In this document: one piece after another, positions 625 through 33,680 of the stretch | Numbering within the stretch: position 1 is the first letter of the stretch | Layout: the number at the start of each line of letters is the position of its first letter | Assembly (NCBI GenBank): GCA_001871515.1 | Contig: MNXW01000276.1 | Span: 1-47,433 of the forward strand | DNA length: 47,433 nucleotides | Direction of reading: 5' to 3' | DNA from: Comamonadaceae bacterium CG2_30_57_122 | GTDB taxonomy: Bacteria; Pseudomonadota; Gammaproteobacteria; Burkholderiales; Burkholderiaceae_C | Position numbers and translations under genes: made by a program | The notes under the pieces: generated by a model | Database searches by the model: none | Told to the model about the DNA's origin: nothing | What the model saw: only the letters and a program-made list of their open reading frames with translations

Positions 625-680
625 TTGCTATTTAATAAATAGCTTAGGGCTCGTAAAGTAATAAGGGCTACATGCCCAAA
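625..680 (+). repeat. Dispersed CTATT/GGGCTA repeat, copy 1 (intergenic)
   Basis: It begins one base after the ychJ stop. It shows the family pattern: an AT-rich near-palindrome TTGCTATTTAATAAATAGCT, a spacer, then AAGGGCTACATGCC. It is relatively diverged. Same orientation as ychJ. Confidence 0.6.
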
Positions 681-782
681 ACGTTCACATGAATTGTCTT
701 GCGCCGGGGCGTGCGTACCAACCCTCCGGGCATGCGGGGCTGGTTGTCATGGCATCTCGCAGCATGAAACATGTGCTGCCAG

Positions 783-830
783 CGTAGGGCGGGCTTCAGC
801 CCGCCATGGCCGACTAAAGTCGGCCCTACG
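783..830. repeat. REP-like double hairpin
   Basis: Two adjacent perfect hairpins, GGCGGGCT-TC-AGCCCGCC (788-805) and GGCCGACT-AA-AGTCGGCC (808-825), are enclosed by an outer pair GTAGGGC/GCCCTAC (784-790 and 823-829). This is the architecture of a bacterial REP/BIME-type palindrome. It sits in the intergenic space between ychJ and the convergent ABC ATPase gene, where it could also act as a transcription barrier. The rest of 681-854 shows nothing I recognise. Confidence 0.7.
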
Positions 831-854
831 AACGCCAGTTTCAAGCCTTATGGC

Positions 855-1571
855 TCAGTTCACGGTCACCGTGTCGCTGTGCAACTTGCCGTCCACCAGC
901 TCCAGCAAACGGTCACAACGAGCGGCCAGATGGGCATCGTGGGTCACCACCAGGAACGAGATGCCGCGCTCGGCGTGCAAGCGGCGCAGCAGGGCAAATA
1001 CGTCGCTGCTGGCGGCCTGATCCAGATTGCCGGTGGGCTCATCGGCCAGTACCAGCGGCGGGTTCAGCACCACGGCGCGGGCAATGGCCACGCGCTGCTG
1101 CATGCCGCCCGAGAGTTCGGCGGGGCGTTTGTGTTCAGCGCCCGCCAGGCCCACGTCGGCCAGCAAGTCACGCGCATGTTGCAACTGCTGGGCACTCACC
1201 TGGCCATGGATCATCATCGCTGGCAGCGTCACGTTTTCCAGCGCGGTGAAGGCCGGCAACAGATGGTGAAACTGAAACACAAAGCCCAGGGTTTGCCGGC
1301 GGCGCAGCGTCAGACCCGCGTCGTCCAAGCCACGCATTTCCTCGCCTTGTAACTGGTAAGAACCAGTCGTCATAGGCTCCAGCAAGCCCAGGATGTTGAG
1401 CAGCGTGCTTTTGCCCGAGCCTGACGGCCCCATCAGCGCCACAAACTCGCCACGCGCTACTTGCAAGTCAATGCCGTGCAACACCTCGGTCTGGCTTGGC
1501 AGCCCCAGGTTGTAGCTTTTGTGAATGCCTTTAAGCGCTATTAAAGTAGTAGCTGCTTGCGCTTGTTTCAT
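855..1571 (-). CDS. ABC transporter ATPase, LolD/MacB family
   Basis: This 238-residue protein is a complete ABC nucleotide-binding domain: Walker A GPSGSGKST (48-56), Q-loop around residue 100, signature LSGGMQQR (153-160), Walker B VLADEPTGNLD (174-184) and switch His in VVTHD (211). It hydrolyses ATP to power the FtsX-type permease encoded just upstream. With the membrane-fusion gene this makes a MacAB/DevBCA-like tripartite exporter. It could be named lolD, but the adaptor gene argues for an exporter rather than lipoprotein sorting. The gene starts 22 bases after the permease stop. Its first 13 codons (MKQAQAATTLIAL) lie inside a dispersed repeat copy, so the N-terminus and probably the ribosome-binding site come from the repeat. 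Confidence 0.9.
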   Translation of the reverse strand: MKQAQAATTLIALKGIHKSYNLGLPSQTEVLHGIDLQVARGEFVALMGPSGSGKSTLLNILGLLEPMTTGSYQLQGEEMRGLDDAGLTLRRRQTLGFVFQFHHLLPAFTALENVTLPAMMIHGQVSAQQLQHARDLLADVGLAGAEHKRPAELSGGMQQRVAIARAVVLNPPLVLADEPTGNLDQAASSDVFALLRRLHAERGISFLVVTHDAHLAARCDRLLELVDGKLHSDTVTVN

Positions 1572-1600
1572 AAGGGCTAGAGGCTAATTTTGTTTATAAA
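1528..1600 (+). repeat. Dispersed CTATT/GGGCTA repeat, copy 2 (overlaps start of the ABC ATPase gene)
   Basis: On the plus strand it reads GCGCTATTAAAGTAGTAGCT, then GCTTGCGCTTG, then AAGGGCTAGAGGC. It covers the start codon of the minus-strand ATPase gene (ATG at 1571) and the gap to the permease stop at 1594, so the gene reads it in antisense. Confidence 0.8.
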
Positions 1601-2820
1601 CGGATGGCTTGCGCCGGGTCCATGGCCGCCGCCCGGCGCGCCGGTGCAATGGCAGCCAGCACGCCGCAGACGCTGGCCAGCAGCGCTACCTTCAGGCCGG
1701 TGTCCCACGGCAGGGTGATGTTGAACAGCGGCTGGCCGTCCGCCCCTTTCACAAAATAGGTGAAGGCAGCAATCAACCCCACTGCAATCAAAATACCCAA
1801 AGCCGAGCCCAGCACACCCACCACCGCGCCCTGCAGCAAAAACACCCGCAAAATCTGCGCGCGTGTGGTGCCCATGGCGCGCAGAATGCCAATCTCGCGC
1901 CCTTTTTGCACCACCGACACCACCAGCACACTGGCAATGCCCAGCACCACCACGATCATCACCACGCTGCGAATGATGCCGGTGCTGACCGACTGTGCGT
2001 TCAGCGCTGAGACCAGTTGCGCGTTGTTCTCTTGCCAGCTCTCCACCTTGTAGGGGTAGCGCGCGCGCAGGTCTTCGGCTAGTTTTTGCGCTGTCCAGAC
2101 ATCATGCAGTTTGATGTCCAGGTTGGTGACACCACCGGGCAGGCCCAGCAGGTTTTGCGCTGCACGCAGCGGCACGATGACGGTGCGCCGGTTCAGGTCG
2201 CGCACGCCCAAATCCACCAGCGCTGTAACGCGCACCGACTCTGTGACCGCGCCGGTTTGCAGGCTAAAACGGTCCCCCACGCGCACGCCCAAATCATCGG
2301 CCAACTCGCGCCCCACAATGCCTTCACCCGGAGCCAGCCGCGCCACACCGGCCACCACTTTGCTGCGCAGCCCCACAATGCGGTCATAGCGGTCCAGCTC
2401 CACCCCCAGCAAGGCAATCGACTGCTGTGCCTCACCGCGCAACGCCAGGCCAGAGCCCGACACCATCGGCGACACGTCCGAAATTTCTGGCATGGCTTCA
2501 AGCACCGGCAGCAGCAGCTGCCAGTTGACCACCGAGCGCAGACGCTGGGCGCGGGGTTGGGTCTCGGTCAACGCCATCACTCCTGGCTCAGCCAGGCGGG
2601 CGCTCTGCACCACGTCTTGCGGTGAACGCAGCGTGATGTGGCCTTGCGCCCCCAGGGTTTTTGTCAAGGTGCTGGCTTGCAGGCCGCCGATGAGCGCCGA
2701 GATGTAAGCCACCACCGCCACCCCTGCGGCCACCCCCACAATGATGAGCAGGGTCTGCATACGCCCTTCGCGCAAAAAGCGCAGTGCCACCAGCCATTCA
2801 AACCCTAAGCGCTTGCCCAT
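1594..2820 (-). CDS. FtsX-type ABC permease (LolC/E, MacB core family)
   Basis: This 408-residue inner-membrane protein has one N-terminal membrane helix (about 20-45), a large periplasmic domain (about 46-275) and three C-terminal helices (about 280-305, 325-355, 375-395), ending in the conserved PARRAAAMDPAQAIR box of FtsX-like permeases. That box is seen in LolC/LolE, DevC and the MacB C-terminus. It is expected to pair with the ATPase encoded just downstream and the periplasmic adaptor encoded 12 bases upstream, forming a tripartite efflux or export pump. The substrate cannot be read from the sequence. All three genes are on the minus strand and very tightly spaced, so they are almost certainly one operon. 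Confidence 0.88.
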   Translation of the reverse strand: MGKRLGFEWLVALRFLREGRMQTLLIIVGVAAGVAVVAYISALIGGLQASTLTKTLGAQGHITLRSPQDVVQSARLAEPGVMALTETQPRAQRLRSVVNWQLLLPVLEAMPEISDVSPMVSGSGLALRGEAQQSIALLGVELDRYDRIVGLRSKVVAGVARLAPGEGIVGRELADDLGVRVGDRFSLQTGAVTESVRVTALVDLGVRDLNRRTVIVPLRAAQNLLGLPGGVTNLDIKLHDVWTAQKLAEDLRARYPYKVESWQENNAQLVSALNAQSVSTGIIRSVVMIVVVLGIASVLVVSVVQKGREIGILRAMGTTRAQILRVFLLQGAVVGVLGSALGILIAVGLIAAFTYFVKGADGQPLFNITLPWDTGLKVALLASVCGVLAAIAPARRAAAMDPAQAIRL

Positions 2821-2832
2821 GATGTGCGCGGC

Positions 2833-4149
2833 TCAACGGCCCATGGTGTTGGTGATTGCAGCGCCGGCTGCGCCACCTTGCGTGCCCTTGGCCTGGGCGG
2901 TGTGGGTGGGGTTTGACGCGCTGACTTCGCGCACACGCACTTTTTGGCCAACCCTCAGGCCAGGCTTCAGCAGCAGCACATCGCCAGCCTGCAAACCCTC
3001 CAGCACTTCAGCAGCTTGCAGCGAGCGCACCCCCAGGCGCACGCGTTGCAACTGCGCCCGGCCATCCAGCGCCACCAGCACCTGGGCTGTGTTGTCGGTC
3101 GCATCGGGTGAGGTGCGCAGCGCCGCCAGTGGCACGGTTAAGGCGTGGTCACGGCGGGCGGTTTCTACCTCGACCGACAGCGTCATGTCTTCGCGCAAAA
3201 AAGCCGGGGCGCTTTGCGTCAACGTCAGGGTGACTTCGACCGCGCCGCGTTGCGCATCCACCGCCGGGGCAATGAAAGCCACCTGCGCGCCCAGGCGCTG
3301 ATCAGCAAACGCATCGGCCACCACCGTGGCGGGTTGGCCCACCGCCAGTTGCGCCAAAAAGCGCTCGTCTACCTGGGCTTTGAGCTGCGTGGGCCCGGCC
3401 AGCGCCAGGCTCAACAGCGCGCGTCCCGGCTGCACAATTTGCCCAGGCTCCACGCTGCGCGCCAGCACGCGCGCATCAGCTGGCGCGCGCAACACGGTTT
3501 GGCTCAAGCGTGCTTGCGCGGCTTGGCTGGCCGCCTGCGCCAATGTCAGTTGGGCTTGTGCCTGGGTGATGTCGGTGCCGGCATCCAGGTTGGCTTGCAC
3601 CTGCGCTGCAGCGCCGTCCTGCACGGCTTGTGCCACACCCAAGGCACGCTGCGCTTCGTCCAGCCGTGCCGGGCTCAAAAATCCCTGGGAGACGAGTTGC
3701 TGGGTACGTGCCACGTCGGCCTTTGCCGCTTGCAGCGTGGCCTGGGCTTGCGCCAAAGCAGCGTGCGTCTGCACACGGCCGGTAGAGCGCAGCCCCTGCA
3801 GCCGGGCCAGCGCCTGGGTTTGGGTGGCTTGCGCCTGATGCAACGCGGCAAGTAGTTCGTCAGACTCCAGTTGCACCAGCGCCTCACCGGCGTGCACCTG
3901 GGCACCTTCGCGCACCAGCACCTGCGCCACCCGCGCGGTGAGCGTGCTACCCACGTCCACCCGCGCCAGGGTAGCCACACGGGCAGAAAACTGCACGCTG
4001 CGCACCAGGTTGCCGGCTTGCACGGTGACACTGTCGACCAGCGGCGCGCGTGTCGTCCACCAAAGAAGCGCGGCCAGCAGCGCCAAAAGCAAGGGGATCA
4101 CCCACCGGCGTTGTCGCGGTAGCCGGGAAAGCCAAGATTGAAAATGCAT
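2833..4149 (-). CDS. Periplasmic adaptor (HlyD/MacA-type membrane-fusion protein)
   Basis: A 438-residue membrane-fusion protein. One N-terminal anchor helix (residues about 17-35) is followed by a barrel-sandwich/lipoyl half-motif (RVAQVLVREGAQVHAGEALV) and a long Ala/Gln-rich coiled coil (about 95-210). The second lipoyl half carries RAPADARVLARSVEPG, then beta-barrel and membrane-proximal domains, with a Pro/Gly-containing C-terminus. It would link the permease/ATPase to an outer-membrane channel. I chose the ATG at 4149; an in-frame extension to 4200 would place charged residues ahead of the anchor and overlaps the gene remnant upstream. It is first in the three-gene operon. Confidence 0.85.
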   Translation of the reverse strand: MHFQSWLSRLPRQRRWVIPLLLALLAALLWWTTRAPLVDSVTVQAGNLVRSVQFSARVATLARVDVGSTLTARVAQVLVREGAQVHAGEALVQLESDELLAALHQAQATQTQALARLQGLRSTGRVQTHAALAQAQATLQAAKADVARTQQLVSQGFLSPARLDEAQRALGVAQAVQDGAAAQVQANLDAGTDITQAQAQLTLAQAASQAAQARLSQTVLRAPADARVLARSVEPGQIVQPGRALLSLALAGPTQLKAQVDERFLAQLAVGQPATVVADAFADQRLGAQVAFIAPAVDAQRGAVEVTLTLTQSAPAFLREDMTLSVEVETARRDHALTVPLAALRTSPDATDNTAQVLVALDGRAQLQRVRLGVRSLQAAEVLEGLQAGDVLLLKPGLRVGQKVRVREVSASNPTHTAQAKGTQGGAAGAAITNTMGR

Positions 4150-4181
4150 GTGCCTGATGGTAGCGAATGTCGCAGGCAGAC

Positions 4182-4400
4182 GCCCAGGTACATCACCCAC
4201 GAGCCTTCAAAGCCCGAGGCCTCTGCCGATGCGTCGTCCGGGTTGAGAAACCAGGTTCGGTCGCCAGGCACGTAGTAGCGTGGTGGCAGGGGTGACTCCA
4301 TGCTGCCCTGCTCGCGCAAAAACACCTTGTGAAACTCGGCCGAGCGAATCGGGCGCTGTGGCCACAGGGTTTGCAACTGTTGGTACAGCGGCGGGTTGCA
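4182..4400 (-). pseudogene. Remnant of an unrecognised coding gene
   Basis: One minus-strand frame reads like real protein for about 73 residues (from CNPPLYQQLQTLWPQRP through RYYVPGDRTWFLNPDD to EGSWVMYLG). It has no start codon upstream and runs straight into the 5' part of the adaptor gene. Its composition is protein-like (Trp, Tyr, Pro, charged residues), unlike the shadow frames nearby. I read it as the truncated middle or end of a gene whose two ends were lost when the flanking operons came together. I do not recognise the family. The rest of the 4150-4544 gap holds only this and a repeat copy. Confidence 0.4.
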
Positions 4401-4485
4401 CAGCGCTCAATATTGCCGTGAATGGCAATCCCTTCGGGAGACTGCAGGTTGGAACTTTGTGCCGCACGCACAGTCCGTGTATAAG

Positions 4486-4550
4486 GCTAGCTACTATTTT
4501 TATAGCTTCTAGCCCTTTAATTTAAAGGGCTACAGCTTAATTACTTATAT
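4486..4550 (+). repeat. Dispersed CTATT/GGGCTA repeat, copy 3
   Basis: GCTACTATTTTTATAGCT, then CTAGCCCTTTAATTTAAAGGGCTACAG: the usual AT-rich near-palindrome followed by the GGGCTA box, here itself part of a perfect hairpin (AGCCCTTTAA/TTAAAGGGCT). It touches the last codons of yacG and could serve as its transcription terminator. Confidence 0.75.
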
Positions 4551-4769
4551 ATTTTTGGGTGTGGTGGAAGGTGGCACTTGTGCATCGTCAGGCGGTGCTG
4601 AGGCGGGCAGGGTGAACTGTTCGCTGGCCCAGGCTCCGAGGTCAATTTTTTTGCAGCGTTCTGAGCAAAACGGGCGATACCGGTTGCTGGGCGCGTACAA
4701 GCTGTCGCCGCCACAGGTGGGGCAGCGCACCAGTTTCAAAACCGGCTCGTCTGGTGTGGACGGTGTCAT
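4545..4769 (-). CDS. yacG: YacG, zinc-binding DNA gyrase inhibitor family
   Basis: This small 74-residue protein has the YacG zinc-ribbon: CPTCGG (about residues 16-21), then [14 protein letters not shown] (about 35-48), giving four Cys ligands and the conserved DLGxWA box. In E. coli YacG binds GyrB and inhibits gyrase. The start is the ATG at 4769, whose ATGA overlaps the zapD stop, indicating translational coupling. An in-frame GTG two codons earlier is possible. The C-terminal tail is Pro/Ser-rich and not conserved. It is last in the pilB-pilC-pilD-coaE-zapD-yacG run. Confidence 0.92.
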
Positions 4770-5521: not shown

Positions 5522-5548
5522 GCTGATGTTGCCCGTGTCTGAAAAAAG

Positions 5549-6154: not shown

Positions 6155-6168
6155 AACGCACGGCACGT

Positions 6169-8225: not shown

Positions 8226-8244
8226 GGTAAGTTCAAGTACCTTG

Positions 8245-9990: not shown

Positions 9991-10004
9991 AAGTTACAAA
10001 TGTA

Positions 10005-10247: not shown

Positions 10248-10401
10248 TCCGACCGCAGCGGTCTATTTTTTACCGTCTTTTTGACTCATGGCTACGGCTA
10301 TGAGCCAGCAAATCCGGCAAAAACTGCCCTCGCTGGGGTCGAATTTGGCTACGCCGCTCTTCGAGAACGCTTCGATGCCGAAAGTCCGACAGCCTCCTAG
10401 G
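10210..10401. mobile_element. MITE-like element 1 with 24-bp perfect terminal inverted repeats
   Basis: The ends at 10210-10233 and 10378-10401 are perfect 24-bp inverted repeats beginning CCTAGGAGGCTGTCGGACTT. The 192-bp unit encodes no transposase. The five bases TTGAA occur directly on both sides (10205-10209 and 10402-10406), which fits a target-site duplication; alternatively the CTAG near each end is the duplicated target. Inside is a near-palindrome CTCATGGCTACGGCTATGAG (10286-10305). It lies in the non-coding gap between the esterase gene and pilB; outside the element, 10402-10473 shows nothing recognisable. Confidence 0.8.
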
Positions 10402-14540: not shown

Positions 14541-14828
14541 ATGGCTCTGTTGATCACCGATGCATGCATCAACTGCGATGTCTGTGAGCCCGAGTGCCCC
14601 AACCAAGCCATTTACATGGGGCCTGAAATCTACGAGATTGACCCGGCCAAATGCACCGAATGCGTGGGTCATTTTGACGAACCCCAGTGTGTGCAGGTGT
14701 GCCCGGTGAACTGCATCCCGATTCACCCGCAATGGGTCGAAAGCCGTGAAACCTTATGGCAAAAATACCAGCGCCTGCAGGTCACGCCTTTGGTTGCAGT
14801 TCAGGCAGGCGATGAGGCTGCTTTTTGA
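14541..14828 (+). CDS. YfhL-family 2[4Fe-4S] ferredoxin
   Basis: A 95-residue ferredoxin with two cluster-binding Cys groups: CINCDVCEPECP (residues about 9-20) and CTECVGHFDEPQCVQVCP (about 38-55). The longer spacing in the second group is typical of YfhL/Alvin-type ferredoxins. It carries electrons at low potential in the cytoplasm; its partner is not visible. An in-frame GTG at 14532 is possible, but the ATG at 14541 matches homologues (MALLITDACINC). Its last 28 bases overlap the 3' end of the convergent minus-strand gene. Confidence 0.93.
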   Translation: MALLITDACINCDVCEPECPNQAIYMGPEIYEIDPAKCTECVGHFDEPQCVQVCPVNCIPIHPQWVESRETLWQKYQRLQVTPLVAVQAGDEAAF

Positions 14829-15301
14829 GCTGCTTTCTTTTGCGTGGTTTTTTTCAAGCGTTTTTTCTGATCCGAACCGGGCACTTGCGCCACAAACACA
14901 TCGGGCTTGTGGTGTTTGGCTTGGATGCGTTTGGGTGTAATTTTGTGCACCACCGCGACATCGCTGGCGCTTGGTGTCATTGGCGATGTGGTGTCGGTGC
15001 TCGGTAGCGTGACAGGCGCTGGTTTCAAAGCCGCTTTTTCTTGTGCCAGGCGCTTTTTTTCAAGCAACTGGGCTTGCTTGGCATCTTGTCGCACTGCCTC
15101 GTCGGTTTGACGCTTCTGCTGTGCGTCACGCGTGTCGTCCACCTGGACGGTTTGACCACCGGGGCAGGGGATTTGGCTGTAACTGTTGCCACATCTATAA
15201 ACAATTTGGCCTCTAGCCCTTGTAGATAAAGCGCTAGTAGCTATTATAAAAATAGCTATGCAAAGCCAGCTGAGCGTTCGGCTTGGGAAGAGTGGGTTCA
15301 T
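14801..15301 (-). CDS. DUF4124-like exported protein with basic C-terminal tail
   Basis: A 166-residue protein. It has an N-terminal signal peptide (hydrophobic [16 protein letters not shown]), then [17 protein letters not shown], the short Cys-containing beta motif of the DUF4124 family. After that come a charged coiled stretch rich in Gln/Lys/Ala (about 65-95) and a Lys/Ala-rich end ([17 protein letters not shown]). Function is unknown; family members are envelope proteins. The ATG overlaps the pth stop (ATGA). The second half of the signal peptide is encoded by a dispersed repeat (15197-15258). Confidence 0.7.
15197..15258 (-). repeat. Dispersed CTATT/GGGCTA repeat, copy 4 (inside the signal peptide of the DUF4124-like gene)
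   Basis: Read on the minus strand: CATAGCTATTTTTATAATAG, then CTACTAGCGCTTTATCTACA, then AGGGCTAGAGGCCAAATTG. It is translated in frame as [19 protein letters not shown], so it supplies the hydrophobic core and the region just after it. Confidence 0.85.
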
Positions 15302-18132: not shown

Positions 18133-18966
18133 TTACCTAGCCCAGCCATACAGCGGGTGCAAAGGTAAATTGCCACATTGTCTGATTTGAAAACCCGGCA
18201 CAGCCTGAACCTTCATCTCATGCAATGTCCGCGCAAACACGGCACTTCCAGACCCGGTCATTCTGCCATTCAGCCCCAAACTCTTGACATAAGCCAAAGC
18301 CTGTGAAATATCGGGGCAAATCTGCTGAGCAACGGTCTGCAAGTCATTACAACCGAAGCCGTATGCGTTTGCAGCGAAGCCTGAGATTCTAGCGGATTTT
18401 GTATTCCTTTTTAAATCTGGACTTGAAAAAATTCGCTCTGTAGTGACACCCTGGGCTGGTTTGAGCACCAAAAACCGGGCTGGCGGCAGGTCGACGGGGC
18501 TCATTTTTTCACCAATGCCACTGACCCAGGCGTTTTGTCCGGCCAGAAAAAAGGGAACGTCAGCCCCCAGACTCAGACCCAGCGGCAGCAAGGTATCTAG
18601 CCCCAGCCCGAGCTTCCACAAGCGGTTCAGCGCCAGCAGTGTGCTGGCCGCGTCAGAAGAGCCGCCGCCCATGCCGGCCTGGGATGGAATGCGTTTGTCG
18701 ATGGTGATGTGGGCTCCCAACCGGATGCCGCTCAATTGCTGCAAGGCGCGCGCCGCACGCAACACCAGGTCGTCTGCGGGCAAAGCTTCACCGATGTCTT
18801 CTCGGCTGAGCTGCCCGTCTGGGCGTACCTCAAAGTGCAGGGTGTCGCACCAGTCGATCAGCATGAACACCGACTCCAGCAGGTGGTAACCGTCGGCTCG
18901 GCGACCCACAATGTGCAGGAAAAGATTGAGTTTGGCAGGAGCCGGGATGTCGTAGAGGGATTTCAT
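18133..18966 (-). CDS. ispE: 4-diphosphocytidyl-2-C-methyl-D-erythritol kinase
   Basis: A 277-residue GHMP kinase of the MEP isoprenoid pathway. It begins YDIPAPAKLNLFLHIVGRRA, has DGYHLLESVF and the ATP loop PSQAGMGGGSSDAASTLLAL, and MTGSGSAVFA near the C-terminus. The C-terminal LPLHPLYGWAR is close to the usual end. It starts at ATG 18966, 24 bases after the lolB stop, and is probably co-transcribed with the TPR gene and lolB. Confidence 0.95.
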   Translation of the reverse strand: MKSLYDIPAPAKLNLFLHIVGRRADGYHLLESVFMLIDWCDTLHFEVRPDGQLSREDIGEALPADDLVLRAARALQQLSGIRLGAHITIDKRIPSQAGMGGGSSDAASTLLALNRLWKLGLGLDTLLPLGLSLGADVPFFLAGQNAWVSGIGEKMSPVDLPPARFLVLKPAQGVTTERIFSSPDLKRNTKSARISGFAANAYGFGCNDLQTVAQQICPDISQALAYVKSLGLNGRMTGSGSAVFARTLHEMKVQAVPGFQIRQCGNLPLHPLYGWAR

Positions 18967-18990: not shown

Positions 18991-19503
18991 TCAGGGTTCC
19001 AAAATCAGGCGCAATTGGGCGGGGGGCGCAGTCAGGCGTTGTGCCGTGATTTTGCCTTCGGCAAAGTTCGCCAGATCGACCTGCCAGCCGTCGGCTGACA
19101 GGTGCTGGCCGTTGAGCCAGGCAAACAGCGCCGAGACCGGAACATCCGTCCCCAGAAGGTCTTGGATCAGGGGCGCGAGCCCGTCAAACGTGCGGATTTG
19201 GCCTTGAGTGGCCAATGTTGCTTCGGCTGGAGACCAGTGAATGGCCGCTGCTGTGCTGCCCAGAGGGGTAAAAAAAATCAGCTCACCAGCATCTGGTGTG
19301 CCGGTTAATTCAAAGCTGGCACTGAAGGATTGTGCGGCGGATGCGGGCGCATCTGCGGGCGCTTGCACCTGGATCGCCAGGCGACCATGCCAAGCGTTAT
19401 ATTTTTGGTAATTTTGACCTGTAGCCCTTGTGTTTATTGTGCATCCAGCTATAAATAACATAGCAAATAAAAAACAGCTTAACGCTGCAGCACCACGTTT
19501 CAC
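18991..19503 (-). CDS. lolB: Outer-membrane lipoprotein insertion protein LolB
   Basis: A 170-residue lipoprotein. The lipobox LFIAGC puts the lipidated Cys near residue 21. The LolB barrel follows (RLAIQV, FSASFELTG, GELIFFTPLGST, a Trp-containing QVDL and the C-terminal QLRLILEP). It receives lipoproteins from LolA and inserts them into the outer membrane. The start is GTG at 19503, overlapping the TPR-gene stop as GTGA. The second half of the signal peptide and the first mature residues (FIAGCTINTRATGQNY) are encoded by a dispersed repeat copy. The position before ispE supports the call. Confidence 0.88.
   Translation of the reverse strand: MKRGAAALSCFLFAMLFIAGCTINTRATGQNYQKYNAWHGRLAIQVQAPADAPASAAQSFSASFELTGTPDAGELIFFTPLGSTAAAIHWSPAEATLATQGQIRTFDGLAPLIQDLLGTDVPVSALFAWLNGQHLSADGWQVDLANFAEGKITAQRLTAPPAQLRLILEP
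19410..19468 (-). repeat. Dispersed CTATT/GGGCTA repeat, copy 5 (encodes the lolB lipobox)
   Basis: Read on the minus strand: TTTGCTATGTTATTTATAGC, then TGGATGCACAATAAACACA, then AGGGCTACAGGTCAAAATTA. Translated in frame as AMLFIAGCTINTRATGQNY, so the lipidated Cys codon lies within the repeat. Confidence 0.75.
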
Positions 19504-26042: not shown

Positions 26043-26043
26043 G

Positions 26044-27696
26044 TCATGTGCCTTGTGCTTGTAGCAGATCACGTGCGTGGGCCAGGGTGCTGTCCATCAG
26101 GCGTTCGCCGCCCAGCATGCGCGCCAGTTCCTTGACACGTGCTTCATCCGTCACAGCGCTCACCTGGCTGGTGGTGTGCGCCCCTTGGGTGTGCTTGCGC
26201 ACCACCAGATGGTGGTCGGCGCAGGCCGCCACCTGGGGCAGGTGCGTCACGGCTAGCACCTGGCGGTCGACACCCAGCTGCTGCATCAACCGCCCCACAG
26301 TTTCGGCCACAGCTCCGCCCACACCGGTATCCACCTCGTCAAAAATCAGGGTTTGGGCGCTGCCGAGTTGGCTGGTGGTGACGGCAATGGCCAGCGCGAT
26401 GCGTGACAGCTCGCCGCCTGAGGCGACTTTGTTGATGGGCCGCGGGGTGCTGCCCGGATGCCCTGCCACCAGAAACACCACCTCTTCAAGGCCGCTTTGC
26501 ATGGGCTCAGCCGCCGTCTGCAGGCTGACCTCAAACTGGCCGCCTTGCATGCCCAGGCCTTGCATGGCCTGGGTGATGGTTTGAGACAGTTTGGGGGCAT
26601 TTTTTTTGCGTGCGCGCGTCAGCAACGCGGCTTGGGTTGCGTAGATTTGCCAGGCGGCAGCCACGGCCTGCTCCAGCGCGTTCAGATCAGCGGCCGCATC
26701 CAGCGCGGTCAGTTCGTCGTGCCACTGCGCCAATAACGCGGGTAACTCTTCTGGATGGCGCTTGTAACGGCGCGCCAACGACAGCCACAGACTCATGCGC
26801 TCGTCGAGTTCACTCAGGCGCTGGGGCTCCAGTTCGGTGTTGCGCAGGTAGGCGTGAAGTGAATGCACCGCGTCGTCAAGCTGTGCCAGGCTTGAAGTCA
26901 AAACATCTCCTAGCCCTTTAAATACCTGGTCAATATGCTCTTGTTTTTGAAGTAACTCAAGCGCATTTCCAACCCGACTTCGGGCACTTGGTTCGTCTTC
27001 ATCAAGCGCTTGCAGGGCTGCTTGAGCGGCCTCAAGCAGCCCCTGCGTGTGCGCCAAGCGGGTGTGGTCGGCGTTGAGTTGCGGCCACTCGTCGGCTGCT
27101 GGGTTGAGCTTTTCAAGTTCTCCGATTTGCCAGCTCAGACGTTCACGTTCACTGAGCAAGCTCGATTGTGCGGCGTGCGCCTGGGTTAATTTGGTTTGCG
27201 CATCGCGCCACAGATGCCAGGCTTCAGCCGTGGCCGTGGTGCTGACTTGGGCATAGGCATCAAGCAGGGCGCGCACCGCCTCGGCGCGGGTCAGACTTTG
27301 CCAGGCATGCTGGCCGTGGATGTCAAGCAACTGCTCTCCCAGGGCGCGCAATTGGGTGGCGGTAGCGGGGCTGGCGTTGATCCAGGCGCGGCTTTTCCCC
27401 TGGTTGTCCACGGTGCGCCGCAGCAGCAGGGTGTCGTCCTGGTCATAGCCAGCCTCGTCGAGCCAGTGCAGGATGCCGGGCGTGGTGTCAAATTCGGCGC
27501 AGACCTCGGTGCGTGTGGCACCTTCGCGGATCAGGTTCAAGTCGGCGCGGCCACCGGTGACCAACTGCAGCGCGTCAATCAAAATTGATTTGCCCGCACC
27601 GGTTTCACCGGTCAGGACGGTAAAGGCTTGGGCCAGTTCCAGTTCCAGCGCATCCACAATGACGAAATCGCGCAGGATCATGCGTTTGAGACTCAC
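26044..27696 (-). CDS. recN: DNA repair protein RecN
   Basis: A 550-residue SMC-like ATPase for double-strand-break repair. N-terminal [20 protein letters not shown] is followed by Walker [16 protein letters not shown] (about 28-42). A long coiled-coil middle (about 160-370) follows, then the ABC signature [15 protein letters not shown], Walker [14 protein letters not shown] and D/H loops near [17 protein letters not shown]. The start codon is GTG at 27696, overlapping the nadK stop (GTGA); an ATG at 27681 is the alternative. Confidence 0.96.
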
Positions 27697-28595
27697 GTTG
27701 CAGTCACTCCTTCGTTCCAGTGCAATTTTTCTCTGAGGGTGTCAAAGTACGACCAGCCTTTGGGGTGCAGAAACCGCACATGGTGGTCAGAGCGGGTGAC
27801 CTCTATGCGGTCGCCGTGCAGCAAGGAGGCCAGAGACTGCATGTCAAAACTGGCACTGGCATCTCTACCTGCTACTATTTCAATAGCTATATGCGAAGTA
27901 TTAGCAAGGACTATAGGCCTGTTTGATAATGTATGTGGGGCAATCGGAACCATCACCCAACCCGGAATCGAGGGGTGCAGCAAGGGCCCGCCCGAAGACA
28001 GTGCGTAAGCCGTGGAGCCGGTGGGCGTGGCGATGATCAGGCCGTCAGCGCGTTGGTTGGCCACAAAATGACCGTCCACCTCCACCCGCAATTCCACCAT
28101 GCCCGAGGCGGCTCCCCGGTTAACCACCACATCGTTCATGGCCATGGCCTTGAATACGCAATGTCCATCACGCATGACGCGGGCGTTCATCAGGCTGCGG
28201 TGGTCTTCCACATAATGGCCGCGCAGCATGGGTTGAAGGCTTTCGGCAAAGCTGCCATAGGGAATGTCGGTGATGAAACCAAGCCGCCCCTGGTTGATGC
28301 CAATCAGGGGCACGCCGTAGGGAGCCAGCTGGCGGCCAATGCCCAGCATGGTGCCGTCACCTCCCACCACCAACCCCAGGTCGCACTGCGCACCAATCTG
28401 CGCCACGTCCATCAGGGGGTAACCGGTCAGCCCCATGTTGTGCGCGGTGTCTTGCTCGATGGCTACTTCGCAGCCTTGATTGTCCAGAAAATCAATCACC
28501 GCTTCCAGGGCGTTGCGTGAGCCGATGCCCGAAGCACCAGAGGCAATGGCCTGGTATTTGCCGATCAATGCCACGTGATGGAAATTTGACTTCAT
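27693..28595 (-). CDS. nadK: NAD kinase
   Basis: A 300-residue kinase that makes NADP from NAD. It shows [14 protein letters not shown] (about 79-92), [12 protein letters not shown], the conserved NDVVVNRG (E/D binding), and [20 protein letters not shown] with PTGSTAY. The ATG at 28595 is used, with a TTG at 28601 as an alternative. The segment [19 protein letters not shown] is encoded by a dispersed repeat read in antisense. It diverges from hrcA with 28 bases between starts. Confidence 0.95.
27867..27930 (+). repeat. Dispersed CTATT/GGGCTA repeat, copy 6 (inside nadK)
   Basis: Plus strand: GCTACTATTTCAATAGCTAT, then ATGCGAAGTATTAGC, then AAGGACTATAGGCCTGTTTG. It is antisense to nadK and translated there as [19 protein letters not shown]. 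Confidence 0.65.
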
Positions 28596-28623
28596 TTGCA
28601 AATTACATCACTAAAATGAAACG

Positions 28624-29628
28624 ATGCTCGATGACCGTGCCAAGTTATTGTTGAAAGCGCTGGTTGAACGCTACATTGCCGACGGCCAACCGGTGGGTTC
28701 GCGCACCTTGTCACGCGCGTCTGGCCTGGAGTTGTCACCCGCCACCATCCGCAATGTGATGTCTGACCTGGAAGAGCTGGGGCTGATCGCCAGCCCGCAT
28801 ACCTCGGCCGGGCGCATCCCAACTGCGCGTGGCTACCGTTTGTTTGTCGACACCATGCTGACTGTGCAGCGGGGTGAATTGGGTCCGCACAGCCTGGCTC
28901 CCGATCAACCCCAAAAAGTAATTTCAAACGCTGCCAACCTGCTGTCGAGTTTGTCGCAGTTTGTGGGTGTGGTGATCGCGCCACGGCGAACCTCGGTTTT
29001 TCATCACATCGAATTTTTGCGCCTGTCTGACCGGCGCGTGCTGGTCATCATTGTGTCGCCCGAAGGGGATGTGCAAAACCGGGTCATCTTCACTGAATCA
29101 GACTACACCCAGGCCAATTTGGTTGAGGCGGCGAATTACCTCAATGCCCATTACGTGGGTCTGGCCATTGACCAGGTGCGCGAACGTCTGAAAGCTGAGG
29201 TTGACTCCCTGCGTACCGAGATTGCAGCCTTGATGCAGGCGGCTGTGGCTGCCAATTCCGAGGTGTTGTCAGAGGCACAGGATGAGGTGGTGATCTCGGG
29301 AGAACGAAATCTGCTGTCGGTCAGTGACTTCTCCAACGACATGAGCCACTTGCGCCGCGCGTTTGATTTGTTTGAACAAAAGGCGCAACTCATGCGACTG
29401 CTCGATGTCACCGGTCAAGCCGAAGGAGTGCGTATTTTCATTGGCGGAGAAAGTCAGGTGGTGCCCTTTGAAGACCTGTCCATCGTCAGCGCACCCTATG
29501 AGGTGGACGGCATGGTGGTGGGTACCCTGGGCGTGGTGGGTCCCACCCGCATGGCTTACGACCGCATGATCCAGATTGTGGACATTACCTCTAAATTGGT
29601 CAGCAACGCACTGAGTCACCACAAGTAG
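28624..29628 (+). CDS. hrcA: Heat-inducible transcription repressor HrcA
   Basis: A 334-residue repressor of groE/dnaK-type genes. The N-terminal winged helix has [15 protein letters not shown] and [19 protein letters not shown], then [20 protein letters not shown]; the C-terminal GAF-like domain contains IFIGGE and [13 protein letters not shown]. It would bind CIRCE operators. No CIRCE element (TTAGCACTC-N9-GAGTGCTAA) is visible upstream of hrcA here, so autoregulation is not supported by the sequence. Confidence 0.96.
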
Positions 29629-29652
29629 GCCTTTACAATCGTTCGTTCGATC

Positions 29653-29729
29653 GGGCCGTTAGCTCAGTTGGTTAGAGCAGAGGACTCATAATCCTTTGGT
29701 CCACAGTTCAAGTCTGTGACGGCCTACCA
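29653..29729 (+). tRNA. tRNA with CAT anticodon, probably tRNA-Ile2 (lysidine type)
   Basis: 77 nt with encoded CCA. Acceptor GGGCCGT pairs with ACGGCCT. Anticodon loop CTCATAA gives CAT. Two features favour tRNA-Ile2 (C34 converted to lysidine by TilS) over elongator tRNA-Met: C4-G69 and C5-G68 in the acceptor stem, and the variable region TTGGTC, both as in E. coli tRNA-Ile2. It is not initiator tRNA (no mismatched 1-72 pair of that type and no GGG/CCC anticodon stem). Confidence 0.85.
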
Positions 29730-29740
29730 TCGAAAAAAAT

Positions 29741-29749
29741 TGCTATAAT
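29741..29749 (+). promoter_or_regulatory. Extended -10 promoter for tRNA-Arg
   Basis: TGCTATAAT (TG-N-TATAAT) ends 10 bases before the tRNA-Arg 5' end. No good -35 is present because that position falls in the preceding tRNA. A consensus extended -10 can act without one. Confidence 0.6.
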
Positions 29750-29759
29750 TCAGAGCTTA

Positions 29760-29836
29760 GCGGCTGTAGCTCAGTTGGATAGAGTACTTGGCTACGAACC
29801 AAGGGGTCGTGGGTTCAATTCCTGCCAGCCGCACCA
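29760..29836 (+). tRNA. tRNA-Arg(ACG), island attachment target
   Basis: 77 nt with encoded CCA. Acceptor GCGGCTG pairs with CAGCCGC. The anticodon arm TTGG-CTACGAA-CCAA gives ACG (A34 probably edited to inosine). The T loop is GGTTCAATTCC. From base 29792 onwards its 3' part is duplicated at 45649-45694; the island inserted there and left this tRNA copy intact. Confidence 0.95.
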
Positions 29837-29837
29837 T
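29792..29837. repeat. attL: 3' end of tRNA-Arg, left attachment repeat
   Basis: 46 bases, starting CTACGAACCAAGGGGT and ending CCGCACCAT, match 45649-45694 at 45 positions; the single difference is C at 29808 and A at 45665. The repeat begins in the anticodon loop and runs through CCA, the usual target segment for P4-type tyrosine integrases. Confidence 0.93.
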
Positions 29838-29845
29838 ATGAATCA

Positions 29846-29877
29846 AGGACTTAGCGTCGAAAGACACTAAGTCCTTT
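29846..29877. terminator. Hairpin terminator just inside the island's left end
   Basis: AAGGACTTAG and CTAAGTCCTT pair over a 12-base loop, followed by TCTTCTTTCC. It would stop transcription from the tRNA-Arg promoter from reading into the island. Confidence 0.65.
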
Positions 29878-30026
29878 CTTCTTTCCGGCGTTGCTCTTTC
29901 TTCTGGTTGCCGTTTCTCCAAACCTTCCTCGAATAGCAATCCTGCGAGATTAAGGGTTGAACTGACTCTGAGCGTTTGCACAGCAGGGGTTTTGCTCGCA
30001 TTTTCTCTTGTTCGATGTCCGTAGAT

Positions 30027-30092
30027 TTGCTACTTTATTAATAGCAGCTTGCGCACGTTCTACGAGGGCTAGAGGCCTATTTGGCATATAAA
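30027..30092 (+). repeat. Dispersed CTATT/GGGCTA repeat, copy 7
   Basis: TTGCTACTTTATTAATAGCA, then GCTTGCGCACGTTCTACGA, then GGGCTAGAGGCCTATTTGG: a near-consensus copy. With copy 9 it forms long diverged direct repeats (both continue into TGATCAGCCA and a GGCGGC stretch) that bracket most of the hairpin-rich region. Confidence 0.85.
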
Positions 30093-30859
30093 AAGTGCTG
30101 CGCATGGGTTTGATCAGCCACCGCGAAGGCGGCAGACAGTGACGACCCTTCGGCGTTCGATGTTGACGGGTTACCTCTACCAGCGCGGTCATGCCGGGCA
30201 CGTTGCCTGCTGAATGGCGCTGCGCGCTGGTGGCAGCGCACCCAACATCACCGCTTTCGTATTGCGTGAGTCTGTAGCTTTGGTCAGTGGCCAATGCGGA
30301 GTACCGCAATGGCCAGGCACCACGAGGCTGTCGCGTGGCTTCGGCCAGCAGCGCGGTCATGCTGGGCGGCCTGTTTTTTTGATTGAACTGCGCTGCGCGC
30401 TGTGGGCCAGTCCACCCAGCATCACCGCTTTCGTTTTGCCAGCGCTGTTGTGTCATTCAGTGCACGCGGCGCTGCTGCGCCCCGTACAGGTGATGGGGAG
30501 TTACATCGCCAGTGCTTCGCAAGTGTTGGTCAGTGCGCTGGAGCGCAGATATGGCCTCGGCTCGCTGGCGCATCGTGCTGGCGGCGCGGTAGCCAGCAGC
30601 GTGACCATGTGCCCCCGTGAGTCGCTTCGCTTTGTCACAGAGGCACATCGTCACTTTTCGCCAGTTCGTGAGGCCGGTTGTGCCAGTCAGCCGCAAAGGC
30701 GGCGTACCGCCCTTGCAGAGTCACACCCAATGAAAGCATGTGCTTCGCAAGGTGGCAGTCAGAGCGCTGTGGCGCTGGGTGTTGGTCTCGGCTCGCTGGC
30801 GCATCGTGGCTGGTTGCCCAGTTCGACCGCTGTTGGTGATCCGCAGCTACGGCAAAGTT

Positions 30860-30963
30860 ACATAACGCCGCATTGCATTCAGTGTCCGCCAGTCAGTCGC
30901 TAAAGCTCCTTTTGTGGCGGCCACCGCTGCGCGCCCTGCGGGTGAAAGCAACAGGCGTTATGC
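30860..30963 (+). other. Integron attC-like imperfect palindrome
   Basis: ACATAAC (30860-30866) and GTTATGC (30957-30963) stand like R'' and R' boxes; CATAACGCC and GGCGTTATG are perfect inverted repeats 102 bases end to end, with further partial pairing inside. GTTATGC departs from the GTTRRRY consensus at one position. No integron integrase gene is in the window, so this is a resemblance only. Confidence 0.35.
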
Positions 30964-31230
30964 AAAATTGCCTACGCTGAAGCGGTCGCGTCAGCCGCCT
31001 GCACTCCCCAGCCGCTTCGCGTCTTACGTGCAGTCGCCCGTCGCCCTTGTGGTGTGCTGGCACCGTGGCATTAGTCAGGCGCTGCGCGCATGGTTCTGGT
31101 CAGCGGCTTCGCCGTGCATCTGGTGTTTGCCCCCGCCCACCCCTGGGCTTGCTTGCTTCGCAGCATCGCCCGCGCGGTCTGCCCGTCCGCCCCCCAAGGG
31201 GGCTCCCTCAGTCCGCGCGCCAACTGGGTC

Positions 31231-31290
31231 GTTTTTGCTACATGTTTGGTAGCTTGTAACGCAAGGAATACGAGGGCTACAGGCCTGACG
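31231..31290 (+). repeat. Dispersed CTATT/GGGCTA repeat, copy 8
   Basis: TTGCTACATGTTTGGTAGCT, then TGTAACGCAAGGAATACGA, then GGGCTACAGGCCTGACGGCC. It runs directly into the double hairpin at 31279-31320. Confidence 0.7.
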
Positions 31291-31320
31291 GCCTGTAAGC
31301 CAGCGTGGCCGCTGGCTTAC
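31279..31320. repeat. Double hairpin
   Basis: ACAGGCC-TGAC-GGCCTGT (31279-31296) overlaps by two bases GTAAGCCAGCG-TGGC-CGCTGGCTTAC (31295-31320). Both stems are perfect. The two-hairpin layout recalls the REP-like unit at 783-830, but the stem sequences differ. Confidence 0.65.
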
Positions 31321-31344
31321 TACTCGGGCAAAAACGTTGCCGAA

Positions 31345-31412
31345 CTAGCTATTTAATTCATAGCTGCTTACGCACGTTCTACGGGGGCTAGCGGCATAAA
31401 AGGCATAAAGTT
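31345..31412 (+). repeat. Dispersed CTATT/GGGCTA repeat, copy 9
   Basis: AGCTATTTAATTCATAGCTG, then CTTACGCACGTTCTACGG, then GGGCTAGCGGCATAAAAGGC. It is closest to copy 7 and in the same orientation. Confidence 0.8.
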
Positions 31413-31467
31413 TCGCTGCACAGCGGTGTGATCAGCCATTCAGATGGCGGCTATCTCGACAGCTTTG

Positions 31468-32055
31468 TCAGTGGCGGGCGTGTTCATCTTCGGTTCCTTG
31501 CGGTATGGATGTGGGGTGCGCAGTGAAGCCGTCACAGCGCTGGAGTTGCATCACCAGATCGACAGGCAGTTGCGCATCGCGCGAGCGGATAGCGACACCG
31601 GCGGCCTGCCAGTTGCCACAGCGCCATGACCCGGCCCCATGCCCGGCAAAGTGCTTGCACTCCAGGCAAACGCGCCGGTCGTCCTGATCACGATCCCGCA
31701 GCACCAGCTTCTCGGCCAGCGCTTCGCCGTCGTTACGGGCTAAGCCCTTGTCGGTGAACTTGTGCAGGCGCGCCGCGAAGGTGTCAATCTCCGCCCCATT
31801 CATGGCCGATGAATGCGGCCAACACCAGCGGTCGAGGTCTTCGGTCACCGCAATGGAAGAATCGTGTTTTTCCAATACGGCGGGGGAGGGCACTGCCAAA
31901 ACTGACGAAAGCTGCTCTGGCTTTGCAGAAACGGCCTCGGTAGCTACTGCCGAAACTGCCAAAAGTCTCGCAACAGCGGTTTCGTCAGTTTTGGCAGTGC
32001 CGTTCTGGCCCTTTTGTGCAATTGCAGCCTTTGCACGTTCCGCCCAGGTGATCAT
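31468..32055 (-). CDS. Small Cys-containing island protein of unknown function
   Basis: A 195-residue protein starting MITWAERAKAAIAQKGQNGT. The first 80 residues are low complexity (Ala/Val/Thr/Glu); the middle has DLDRWCWPHSSAMNGAEID; and a possible zinc site CLECKHF...WRCGNW follows at about 140-160. I do not recognise a described function. The ATG overlaps the DUF3987 gene stop (ATGA), so it is translated with it and probably belongs to the replication-type module. An open frame reaching upstream to 32349 is antisense to nothing real and only overlaps DUF3987; I do not use it. Confidence 0.65.
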   Translation of the reverse strand: MITWAERAKAAIAQKGQNGTAKTDETAVARLLAVSAVATEAVSAKPEQLSSVLAVPSPAVLEKHDSSIAVTEDLDRWCWPHSSAMNGAEIDTFAARLHKFTDKGLARNDGEALAEKLVLRDRDQDDRRVCLECKHFAGHGAGSWRCGNWQAAGVAIRSRDAQLPVDLVMQLQRCDGFTAHPTSIPQGTEDEHARH

Positions 32056-33680
32056 TTCGCCACCTTCTTGATTTGCGGGTTGACGTAATAGCGCACCGTC
32101 GGGCGACCCAGTGTGTTGATGCCGTCCTGACTTTGCACATGGCCGTTTTCTTCCAAGATGGCCAGGGCGGTTTCGGCCTGTAGGGCGGTGGTGACGCCTG
32201 ACCATTGCTTGCGCACCATGTCGCGGACCGTGAAACCGTCCTCCAACTTGCCCTCGGCCAGTCGGCGGCTGACCATGCGGGCAGTGGTCACCTTGGCGGC
32301 CTCTACCAGCCCATAGATGCGTCGTGCATGGCCTGTCAGGTACTCGCACCAGGCGGCTGCGCGCAGTGCGCCGGTGGCCGTTACCGGGCCAATGGAGCCT
32401 TCTGCCAAGTGCAGGATTAGCGCGATGGAGCAGAACAGTTTTTCAAACTTTCCAAAGTGCTGCTGCATCAACGGGTTTTGCTCGCGGGCGATGTGCACCG
32501 TGTGCAGCTCGGTGCACCACTCCACAAAGATGTCTTGCGCGTCGTCGTCAAAGCAGAAATGCGGCAGCTTCACAAAGTCGTCGTTGGGTGCCGCGCCGTC
32601 CTGCACGGGGTCAAACACAGCCAGCCGGTCAAACAGATCACGCACAGCTTCACGCGCGCCCTTGACCGGGTAGCGGTCGCGCCATTCCCAAGCAACAGCG
32701 TTGGGGTACACCATCACTTGAAACCGCTGGATGCGGCCATCGTTGTCCAACGAGTTGGTGATACCGGCGAGGTAGCGCTCCAGCAATTCCGGCTGTATGC
32801 CGCCGAACACCGAGATGCACAGGTTTTTGATGTGCAGGCTCCCGCGCCCGATGCGGTCAATGTTGAAGCTGGCTGTACCGTTCCAGCCCTCCAGATAAAA
32901 AGCCTTGTCGCCTTCTTTGCCTTCTTTCTCCCAGGAGGCAAGCAGGCCGATCAACTCGTCCCGATAGACAAGCATCCCCTGCGGGTTATGCACTAGCAAG
33001 TCGCCCAACTTTTCCACCGTGGAGTCGTTGGATTTGAACCGGCGTTCCTTGGGCTCTTCCGGGGCTTGCAGGTCTTGCAGGTCGGCAATTGCGGCATTCA
33101 TCTTGAGGTGGTCTGGCTTGCCGCCTGCGGCCTTCTTCATGCTGGCCTTGACGGCGGATTGGTGCGCCTCAAAGGCAGCGGTTTCGGCGGCAAAAATCTT
33201 CTTGGCATCCTCTAGTTTCTCGGCTTCTTTGGCTTCCAGCCGGTCGAGAAAGCGCGTCACCGTGCCCAGGGCGGGAGACTTTTTGGAAGACGGGTCGCCC
33301 ACAATGCCACCAAACAGATTCGGGGTGACGATCCAGTCGTCCCGGCGCTTGGGCTTGATGCCGCAGCGCGCACCAATGACCGAGCCCAGGCAGACGACAA
33401 GCGCCGCCGCGATGTAGTCGGGCGAACAGGGCATGCGGTCGGCTTCGTCCAGTACAAAGTCGGCCAGCGTTGGGGGTAGTAGTGTCTTCGCGTCGAAGTC
33501 TGGAGCAAGGGGAAGATCAGTTTTTATCTCCGTGGGTGCTGGCCATATGCCTAATTGGCCTGTAGCCCACGTGGAATGTGCGTTAGCAGCTACTGAATTA
33601 ATAGCGTAATCAATGCACTCCTTTACCGCGTCTGGCCCTGCCAATAGATGTAAATCGTTGAAGTCGGTCATGTTGTTCAT
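32052..33680 (-). CDS. DUF3987-family protein (primase-helicase-like)
   Basis: A 542-residue protein of the DUF3987/YfjI type. IAAALVVCLGSVIGARCGIK is followed by NLFGGIVGDPSSKKSPAL, whose GDPSSKKSP is a P-loop-like motif (about residues 126-134). YRDELIGLLASWEKEG, AFYLEGWNGTASFNIDR and a winged-helix-like C-terminus complete it. Members are found in islands and phages next to TOPRIM proteins and are thought to act in replication. The ATG overlaps the TOPRIM gene stop (ATGA). Residues about 26-48 (YAINSVAANAHSTWATGQLG) are encoded by a dispersed repeat inserted in frame. Confidence 0.8.
   Translation of the reverse strand: MNNMTDFNDLHLLAGPDAVKECIDYAINSVAANAHSTWATGQLGIWPAPTEIKTDLPLAPDFDAKTLLPPTLADFVLDEADRMPCSPDYIAAALVVCLGSVIGARCGIKPKRRDDWIVTPNLFGGIVGDPSSKKSPALGTVTRFLDRLEAKEAEKLEDAKKIFAAETAAFEAHQSAVKASMKKAAGGKPDHLKMNAAIADLQDLQAPEEPKERRFKSNDSTVEKLGDLLVHNPQGMLVYRDELIGLLASWEKEGKEGDKAFYLEGWNGTASFNIDRIGRGSLHIKNLCISVFGGIQPELLERYLAGITNSLDNDGRIQRFQVMVYPNAVAWEWRDRYPVKGAREAVRDLFDRLAVFDPVQDGAAPNDDFVKLPHFCFDDDAQDIFVEWCTELHTVHIAREQNPLMQQHFGKFEKLFCSIALILHLAEGSIGPVTATGALRAAAWCEYLTGHARRIYGLVEAAKVTTARMVSRRLAEGKLEDGFTVRDMVRKQWSGVTTALQAETALAILEENGHVQSQDGINTLGRPTVRYYVNPQIKKVAK
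33544..33610 (-). repeat. Dispersed CTATT/GGGCTA repeat, copy 10 (in frame inside the DUF3987 gene)
   Basis: Read on the minus strand: TACGCTATTAATTCAGTAGC, then TGCTAACGCACATTCCACG, then TGGGCTACAGGCCAATTAGG. It is translated in frame as YAINSVAANAHSTWATGQLG without breaking the gene. Confidence 0.85.

Follow-up and report, generated by a model that had tools for sequence, protein, structure and literature searches.

A dispersed ~70-bp DNA motif of Comamonadaceae that appears to evolve in place, perhaps by an uptake-like drive

How does a repeat with the look of a mobile palindrome come to be translated, in frame, within several intact genes? The question is raised by a 47,433-nucleotide stretch of Comamonadaceae bacterium CG2_30_57_122 (assembly GCA_001871515.1, contig MNXW01000276.1, positions 1 to 47,433; the window, hereafter, is this whole stretch), in which a preliminary description made from the letters alone had reported ten or so copies of a short repeat, five of them overlapping genes. 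We found that these copies belong to a DNA motif of about 70 bp (consensus near TAATTGCTATTWWWTTAATAGCTGCTTGCGCTTATTTTATAAGGGCTAGAGGCCTATTTTTCTTATAAA) that occurs about once per 6 kb of its own genome, and we conclude with high confidence that its coding copies, where tested, arise and persist by substitution in sequence already present and not as inserted units. While evolution in place is well supported, the mechanism is something we infer: we assign a probability of roughly 45% to the statement, taken as a whole, that this is a DNA-level motif which originates in place and accumulates by drive in the manner of DNA uptake sequences.

Recognition of the motif was based on profiles. A first round, in which nine copies from the window were aligned, gave 48 matches at E < 0.001 in 375 kb of the genome. 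A hold-out profile trained on 39 copies of the same genome, all outside the window, recovered 10/10 of the listed copies (E 1e-19 to 3e-6), an independent confirmation that a dispersed family exists, and also found one additional copy in a RecN-type gene; with the reversed window sequence as decoy, the top match reached only E 1.6. In 682 kb of the genome, 109 copies scored at least 12 bits, including the 39 of the training set, and reversed decoys of the 682 kb reached a maximum of 6.9 bits. As these 682 kb comprise the window and 40 stretches mostly picked for containing matches, they do not give an unbiased copy density. Across the 2.95-Mb assembly, the exact 12-base core GGGCTAGAGGCC occurs 77 times (46 forward, 31 reverse) and the same core read backwards 0 times; a spaced core pattern occurs 133 times (73 and 60 on the two strands; reversed control 0); and a covariance model built from nine window copies gives at least 150 matches at E < 0.002 (a lower bound, scoring being capped at 150 of 1009 candidates). 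The motif is strongly over-represented on both strands, as DNA uptake sequences are. Its copies in the window and the genes that they meet are as follows, with bit scores from the hold-out profile and z values from the synonymous null described below.

620-694 (+): intergenic copy, weakest of the ten listed, requiring a gap (22 bits, E 3e-6); its score with an ungapped matrix, -21, is within the decoy range
1532-1597 (+): copy covering the start codon of the ABC-transporter gene (58 bits, z 5.8)
855-1571, minus strand: ABC-transporter gene (Pfam ABC_tran), which we take to be LolD-like
4485-4550 (+): intergenic copy (42 bits)
15196-15261 (-): copy covering the apparent signal peptide of the DUF4124-like gene (55 bits, z 7.8)
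14801-15301, minus strand: DUF4124-like gene, a name that reflects resemblance only, because a Pfam scan gives the protein no family
19404-19469 (-): copy covering the apparent lipobox signal peptide of lolB (42 bits, z 7.1)
18991-19503, minus strand: lolB (Pfam LolB)
26893-26958 (-): copy inside the recN-type gene in another sense frame, absent from the earlier list (15 bits, E 4e-4, z 5.2); ungapped score +31.5 vs -20.6 for the best decoy
26044-27696, minus strand: recN-type gene (Pfam SMC_N)
27866-27931 (+): copy antisense within the NAD kinase gene (25 bits, E 3e-7, z 7.6)
27693-28601, minus strand: NAD kinase gene (Pfam NAD_kinase)
30024-30089 (+): copy in a tRNA-bounded island (65 bits)
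31232-31297 (+): copy in the island (33 bits)
31343-31408 (+): copy in the island (45 bits)
33545-33610 (-): copy in the N-terminal part of the island's DUF3987 gene (49 bits, z 6.3)
32052-33680, minus strand: DUF3987 gene; the Pfam DUF3987 match begins at residue 85, after the motif copy

The five coding overlaps reported beforehand (the start of the ABC-transporter gene, the DUF4124-like gene, LolB, the NAD kinase gene in antisense and DUF3987) all stand, as does the shared sense frame in the DUF4124-like gene, LolB and DUF3987, and copies do occur both in core DNA and in the island, which holds four.

The origin of the coding copies was assessed from the lengths of orthologues. All 63 NAD kinase orthologues and all 64 RecN orthologues from the named loci are gapless across the motif site, where motif scores are graded across species (-82 to +33 and -133 to +41, respectively); in NAD kinase, the 125 residues across the site match 125 positions of the Pfam C-terminal domain. 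PurK, which carries a copy elsewhere in the genome, is likewise gapless at its site in 29/29 genus orthologues (the best 29 of 53 other genomes with a match) and in PDB homologues (two among the matches listed). Its motif score is +71 in the genome itself, +24 to +62 in 19 orthologues and -4 to -45 in ten motif-poor genomes (0-4 exact cores), in which the peptide is similar. For LolB and the DUF4124-like gene, 24/43 and 8/15 site-spanning alignments are gapless, the others being gapped in divergent signal peptides. A MutS homologue among the matches listed differs by two residues at one of the two motif sites and ends before the other, and both sites are gapless against a motif-poor relative, G037.

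This relative, of which 2.0 Mb were examined (five matches of at least 12 bits, one of them strong), served for a wider length comparison. Thirty-one coding copies could be matched, 29 with good coverage; nine of the 29 show zero length change, the range is -13 to +18 residues, and none of the 29 shows the gain of 20-24 residues expected of whole-copy insertion. Two low-coverage copies, left out of this set, differ by -13 and +14. In control windows, 6.6% of 879 gain at least 10 residues, and the coding sites do not exceed these controls. The one strong copy in G037 (L222:16855-16927, 52.8 bits; the four others are weak) is possibly a remnant or a newcomer.

Insertion of a mobile element into genes was therefore ruled out at the tested sites by orthologue lengths (NADK, RecN, PurK and the G037 set). 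The preliminary description had likened the coding copies to Rickettsia palindromic elements, and the likeness extends to palindromic repeat-like DNA being translated in frame within genes. Those elements are in-frame insertions, whereas the tested coding copies of the motif are length-neutral or vary as control windows do, so for coding copies the parallel does not hold. Repeat-free orthologues have the same length at the tested sites, the outcome that had been named beforehand as contradicting the description.

The coding copies are instead written through codon choice, near the best match that the protein allows. When six window genes were randomly recoded with synonymous codons, 0/4000 draws for each gene attained the observed score (z 5.2 to 7.8). 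Five window genes stand at 76-98% of the best score that their proteins permit (observed/ceiling: NADK 38.2/44.0, RecN 31.5/41.6, LolB 61.0/70.9, DUF4124-like 71.5/73.3 and DUF3987 64.8/72.1). The PurK copy is at its synonymous ceiling, but it belongs to the 39 training copies.

Placement of the 109 copies relied on a simple hexamer gene caller, which trims AT-rich starts, with N-terminal extensions added by rule; by construction, any copy within a called gene has an open frame. By this measure, 43 copies lie inside genes, 9 in N-terminal extensions, 35 over gene ends and 22 in intergenic DNA. As called coding sequence fills 85% of the DNA, copies are about six times as frequent in noncoding as in coding DNA (0.56 vs 0.09 per kb). 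When in-frame and out-of-frame use was counted, the 52 coding copies were found to occupy all six frames (18/17/9/4/3/1), 21 of them antisense to the host gene. No frame of the consensus is free of stop codons, and four of the six have 2-4; 17/52 coding copies occupy these stop-rich frames, in genes such as those for MutS, exonuclease VII, AroE and UvrA. Known uptake sequences also occupy several reading frames. The commonest sense frame translates to AI..IAACA...TRARGQ, hence copies in what by eye are signal peptides, namely those of LolB, the DUF4124-like protein and a protease-like protein. The last, presumably M16-type, carries the motif at its N-terminus in 8/80 named loci (L061, L062, L063, L065, L072, L082, L085 and L116, at ~16-20 kb of each), and is a third recurrent site of this kind. 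DNA-repair genes with coding copies in the genome (L170, L143 and the window) are mutS twice, recN-type, uvrA and exonuclease VII. Enrichment in DNA-repair genes has been reported for uptake sequences. Among noncoding copies, orientation relative to transcription is about even (13 with, 11 against); 43 could be placed in context, 14/57 at stretch edges being omitted, and 0/43 lie in gaps between divergent genes (74/346 gaps overall), with 19/43 between convergent genes.

As to its shape, the unit spans ~66-70 bp, with information near zero on both flanks. The information content of 45 noncoding copies totals ~70 bits and that of 50 coding copies 56 bits, values biased upward by small samples; these column statistics leave out 14/109 copies, which have indels or lie at stretch edges. 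There are two inverted-repeat blocks, and stem covariation was absent in the 14 column pairs examined (z -1.1 to 1.4). Linkage between columns declines with distance, from a mean z of 1.55 for neighbours to 0.05 at 21-40 columns and -0.01 at 41-79 columns. With no covariation and with distant columns independent on average, the unit acts as a double-stranded motif and not as a hairpin, and it has no clear subfamilies.

The motif is patchily spread. In the genus, the exact core is present in 36/60 sampled genomes (own included), with 0 to 113 copies; in the family, 17/160 genomes (own included) have at least 25 matches to a looser core, in keeping with the earlier suggestion of related sequences in Comamonadaceae, as the motif is present in other genera. 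Outside the family, 0/112 genomes of the class match the spaced pattern (133 in the genome itself), a search that dialects could escape. Two dialects are an Acidovorax-type with AaGCGCT (consensus of 22 copies) and a Rhodoferax-type with GaGGGCT (41 copies). When scanned with the Rhodoferax-type profile, four conjugative plasmids are free of copies over the 381 kb examined, which include 250 of the 257 kb of that of Rhodoferax ferrireducens; the scan covered the plasmids and not their own chromosomes. A viral collection holds 16 stretches with the motif, a count with no denominator for viruses of this family.

Evolution in place would fit two causes, namely the cell's own use of each site or biased transfer of the DNA that carries it. 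The second is known from DNA uptake sequences (DUS, Neisseriaceae) and uptake signal sequences (USS, Pasteurellaceae), which resemble the motif in having many copies, intergenic and coding, and dialects among related species; they are also described as rare in acquired DNA (PMC3630211, PMC7811141, PMC2397512). Where its evolution is treated, USS is described as arising by point mutation, not from inserted elements, and accumulating by molecular drive, the same in-place evolution that we observe (PMC7811141). Verminephrobacter eiseniae, of the same family as our genome, is described as taking up DNA in a sequence-specific manner through type IV pili, with the signal sequence not named in the portion of the account concerned (PMC4212676). 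Considering both, we regard the uptake reading as the most economical. A type IV pilus uptake machine would prefer motif-bearing DNA, motif matches would be spread and repaired as the incoming strand recombines, and permissive places (gene ends, linkers, and signal peptides whose protein is already near the motif) would then fill. The genome has a ComEC domain, as do 56/60 genomes of the genus, and all 60 have HHH_3 (ComEA-type). That Comamonadaceae are a third, independent lineage with sequence-specific uptake, in which the motif serves as the self-recognition signal and has dialects in Rhodoferax, Polaromonas and Acidovorax, is a proposal that we make tentatively, at appreciably less than even odds.

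Several points weigh against the uptake reading. As a putative uptake signal, the motif differs from DUS and USS in its ~70 bp and 70 bits as opposed to ~10-bp cores, in having fewer copies (~1 per 6 kb) and in belonging to a different bacterial family. No short ~10-bp core of the DUS/USS kind was matched, the information being spread across ~70 columns, and at ~70 bits in noncoding copies the motif is far longer and richer than known uptake sequences, beyond any need for specificity. ComEC and HHH_3 domains are also found in motif-free genomes, and no ComEC match occurs in G023 or G046, motif-rich genomes with fragmented assemblies, so competence genes, being near-universal and in these two cases missing, were rejected as the explanation of the patchiness. 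Acquired DNA is not strictly motif-free, because the window's own island has its four copies and seven strong ones lie in the 23 kb of a Rhodoferax antarcticus record labelled as a linear plasmid. PurK motif score does rise with genome-wide copy number (Spearman 0.73), but when the correlation is tested by independent pairs, supported branches provide 2-3 of these and significance is not reached; the best PurK tree requires six changes of motif state, two of which are forced by well-supported branches. Some coding sites differ in length (TlyA-like +18, two at +9), and for intergenic copies in 80 syntenic loci the spacers vary in length, which blurs the comparison with empty sites. Subfamilies produced by copying were considered and set aside for lack of mean long-range column dependence; a single old burst could look alike, and 2.7% of 3160 column pairs exceed z 3, including a few widely separated ones (e.g. 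13-74 and 17-69).

The other cause that fits evolution in place is use by the cell, in which the motif would be the binding site of a putative chromosome-organising or segregation protein and be selected because each site serves the cell. We consider this less likely than the uptake reading, though clearly the strongest of the remaining explanations. It would account for evolution in place, for both orientations and for the absence from four conjugative plasmids, and the patchiness in the genus would follow gain or loss of the protein. However, ~70 bits per site is far above what ~400 sites in 3 Mb would need, and in one nearly closed genome the copies are irregularly spaced (CV, the coefficient of variation, 0.88) and have no replication-strand pattern (18 vs a null mean of 17.2, for 66/73 exact-core sites).

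Ectopic gene conversion, by which short single strands from existing repeats would overwrite look-alikes without changing length, is improbable. While it would preserve length and explain many similar copies, and while a Neisseria study, in the part that deals with the origin of DUS, argues for recombination as the source of new ones (PMC2397512), conversion would bring in protein-changing differences; instead, scores sit near the ceiling of what each protein permits. The few linked pairs of distant columns would suit conversion, yet the mean linkage of distant columns is nil.

Still less credible is a mobile palindromic repeat, akin to repetitive extragenic palindromic (REP) elements, miniature inverted-repeat transposable elements or the Rickettsia elements, that inserted intergenically and in frame into genes. 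Hundreds of copies, a long consensus and patchy spread would all suit it, as would the 18 extra residues of the TlyA-like gene at its copy and the likeness to REP elements with their REP-associated tyrosine transposases (RAYT), also short dispersed DNA with inverted repeats. The search for a RAYT suggested by the preliminary description did find a RAYT-like gene in the genome, and the motif lies at the 3' end of this gene in 6/7 loci. Its supposed role is not upheld. Y1_Tnp is present in 53/60 genomes of the genus, compared with 36/60 for the exact core, and many motif-free genomes have a Y1_Tnp match of ~45-53 bits, so that motif presence does not track RAYT. Moreover, it is another repeat that adjoins the gene: TCTGACCCC is downstream in 7/7 of the RAYT-like loci, including that of the motif-free genome G003, and an exact GGGGTCAGA is upstream in 2/7, whereas the motif is on the 3' side only and does not flank the gene in the style of REP elements. 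On these grounds (Y1_Tnp in motif-free genomes and a different repeat beside the gene) RAYT was ruled out as the driver. Between the RAYT-like stop codon and the downstream repeat, the spacer measures 92-100 bases in five genomes that have the motif, against 84 in the genome without it; in another, whose reading frame extends further, it is 66. These nearly equal lengths agree with in-place origin at this noncoding site too. The gapless orthologues, length changes within the control range and copies in stop-rich frames, listed above, all speak against insertion, and what looks like a genuine insert, containing the other repeat, is seen as ~31 extra residues in the very same PurK gene.

That insert, missing from many orthologues, contains a different 65-bp palindromic element (L144:19377-19441) with ends GGGGTCAGATTCC...GGAATCTGACCCC, which match the repeat ends beside the RAYT-like gene. 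It has the look of a true in-frame insertion, unlike the tested coding copies of the 70-bp motif. The start GGGGTCAGATTCC also opens an insert-like stretch in a second gene (L144 ~18554-18764), which we assume to be YrdC-like.

Least credible of all is an RNA element (a terminator, processing or stability hairpin), which the two inverted-repeat blocks and the copies between convergent genes might suggest, and which was rejected on the absent covariation, the lack of orientation bias (13 vs 11), the 21/52 antisense coding copies and an Rfam search that at gathering thresholds gives only three tRNAs in the window.

Parts of the motif have probably been seen before. Tong, Schliekelman and Mrazek (2017) list as potential novel motifs two spaced pairs, ATAGCT(N)22CAAAAG, with 125 copies (18 in genes) in Polaromonas naphthalenivorans, and GCTTAT(N)5AAGCG, with 114 copies in Acidovorax ebreus, in the section of their account on such pairs (PMC5217627). 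Set against these published pairs, our consensus has exactly the same spacing with different letters (CTAGAG, AAGGG), and the AaGCGCT consensus of the 22 Acidovorax-type copies stands beside their AAGCG; because the spacing fits exactly, though a few letters differ, the pairs are probably the same motif in two dialects. That section does not give the full length, evolution in place or a function (PMC5217627). The BRE repeat (Hot, 2011; PMC3110155), at ~90 bp, is described as dispersed in Bordetella and Comamonadaceae with some coding copies and with low counts (4 in Rhodoferax ferrireducens, 29 in Polaromonas JS666); by description, it shares with the motif its dispersal in Comamonadaceae and some coding copies. 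The repeat passages of PMC2755013 deal only with CRISPR. In the literature collection searched, no paper joins 'DNA uptake sequence' with 'Comamonadaceae', and a search for short motif strings gave, among the matches listed and judged by title alone, only unrelated titles.

Two further features of the window were noted. Direct repeats of 50 bp, 96% identical, lie at 29788-29837 and 45645-45694, the first overlapping the 3' end of a tRNA-Arg, and are likely the ends of a 15.9-kb integrated island, the one that holds four motif copies. Beside the first motif copy, at ~786-832, a GC-rich inverted repeat apparently belongs to another repeat family by eye, and visual inspection makes it a candidate that is perhaps BRE-related. 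Beyond the window, the DUF1010 cassette between aadA2 and dfrA12 of pCTX-M3 carries a copy antisense to the gene (L309:1484-1549, 40 bits), which hints at an origin of this class 1 integron cassette in a relative of Comamonadaceae that bears the motif. The consensus is matched, at this place or another, by 1765 plasmid records, and among the matches listed 24/30 name a DUF1010 protein.

One natural misreading is corrected by these results, namely that a repeat read in frame within genes must have been inserted there. Sequences that accumulate by drive in place are known mainly from two bacterial families. If the uptake reading is true, this third case, whose motif is several times longer, would reveal the extent to which drive can rewrite a genome, coding DNA included: the motif would be the longest and richest uptake sequence known to us, and the codons of core genes, in places the protein sequence itself, would have been reshaped over ~1% of the genome. 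It would also mark Comamonadaceae-derived DNA elsewhere, as in the DUF1010 cassette of clinical class 1 integrons, and the uptake signal of transformable Comamonadaceae would become directly testable. Whatever the mechanism, the motif can be used as a mark of DNA origin.

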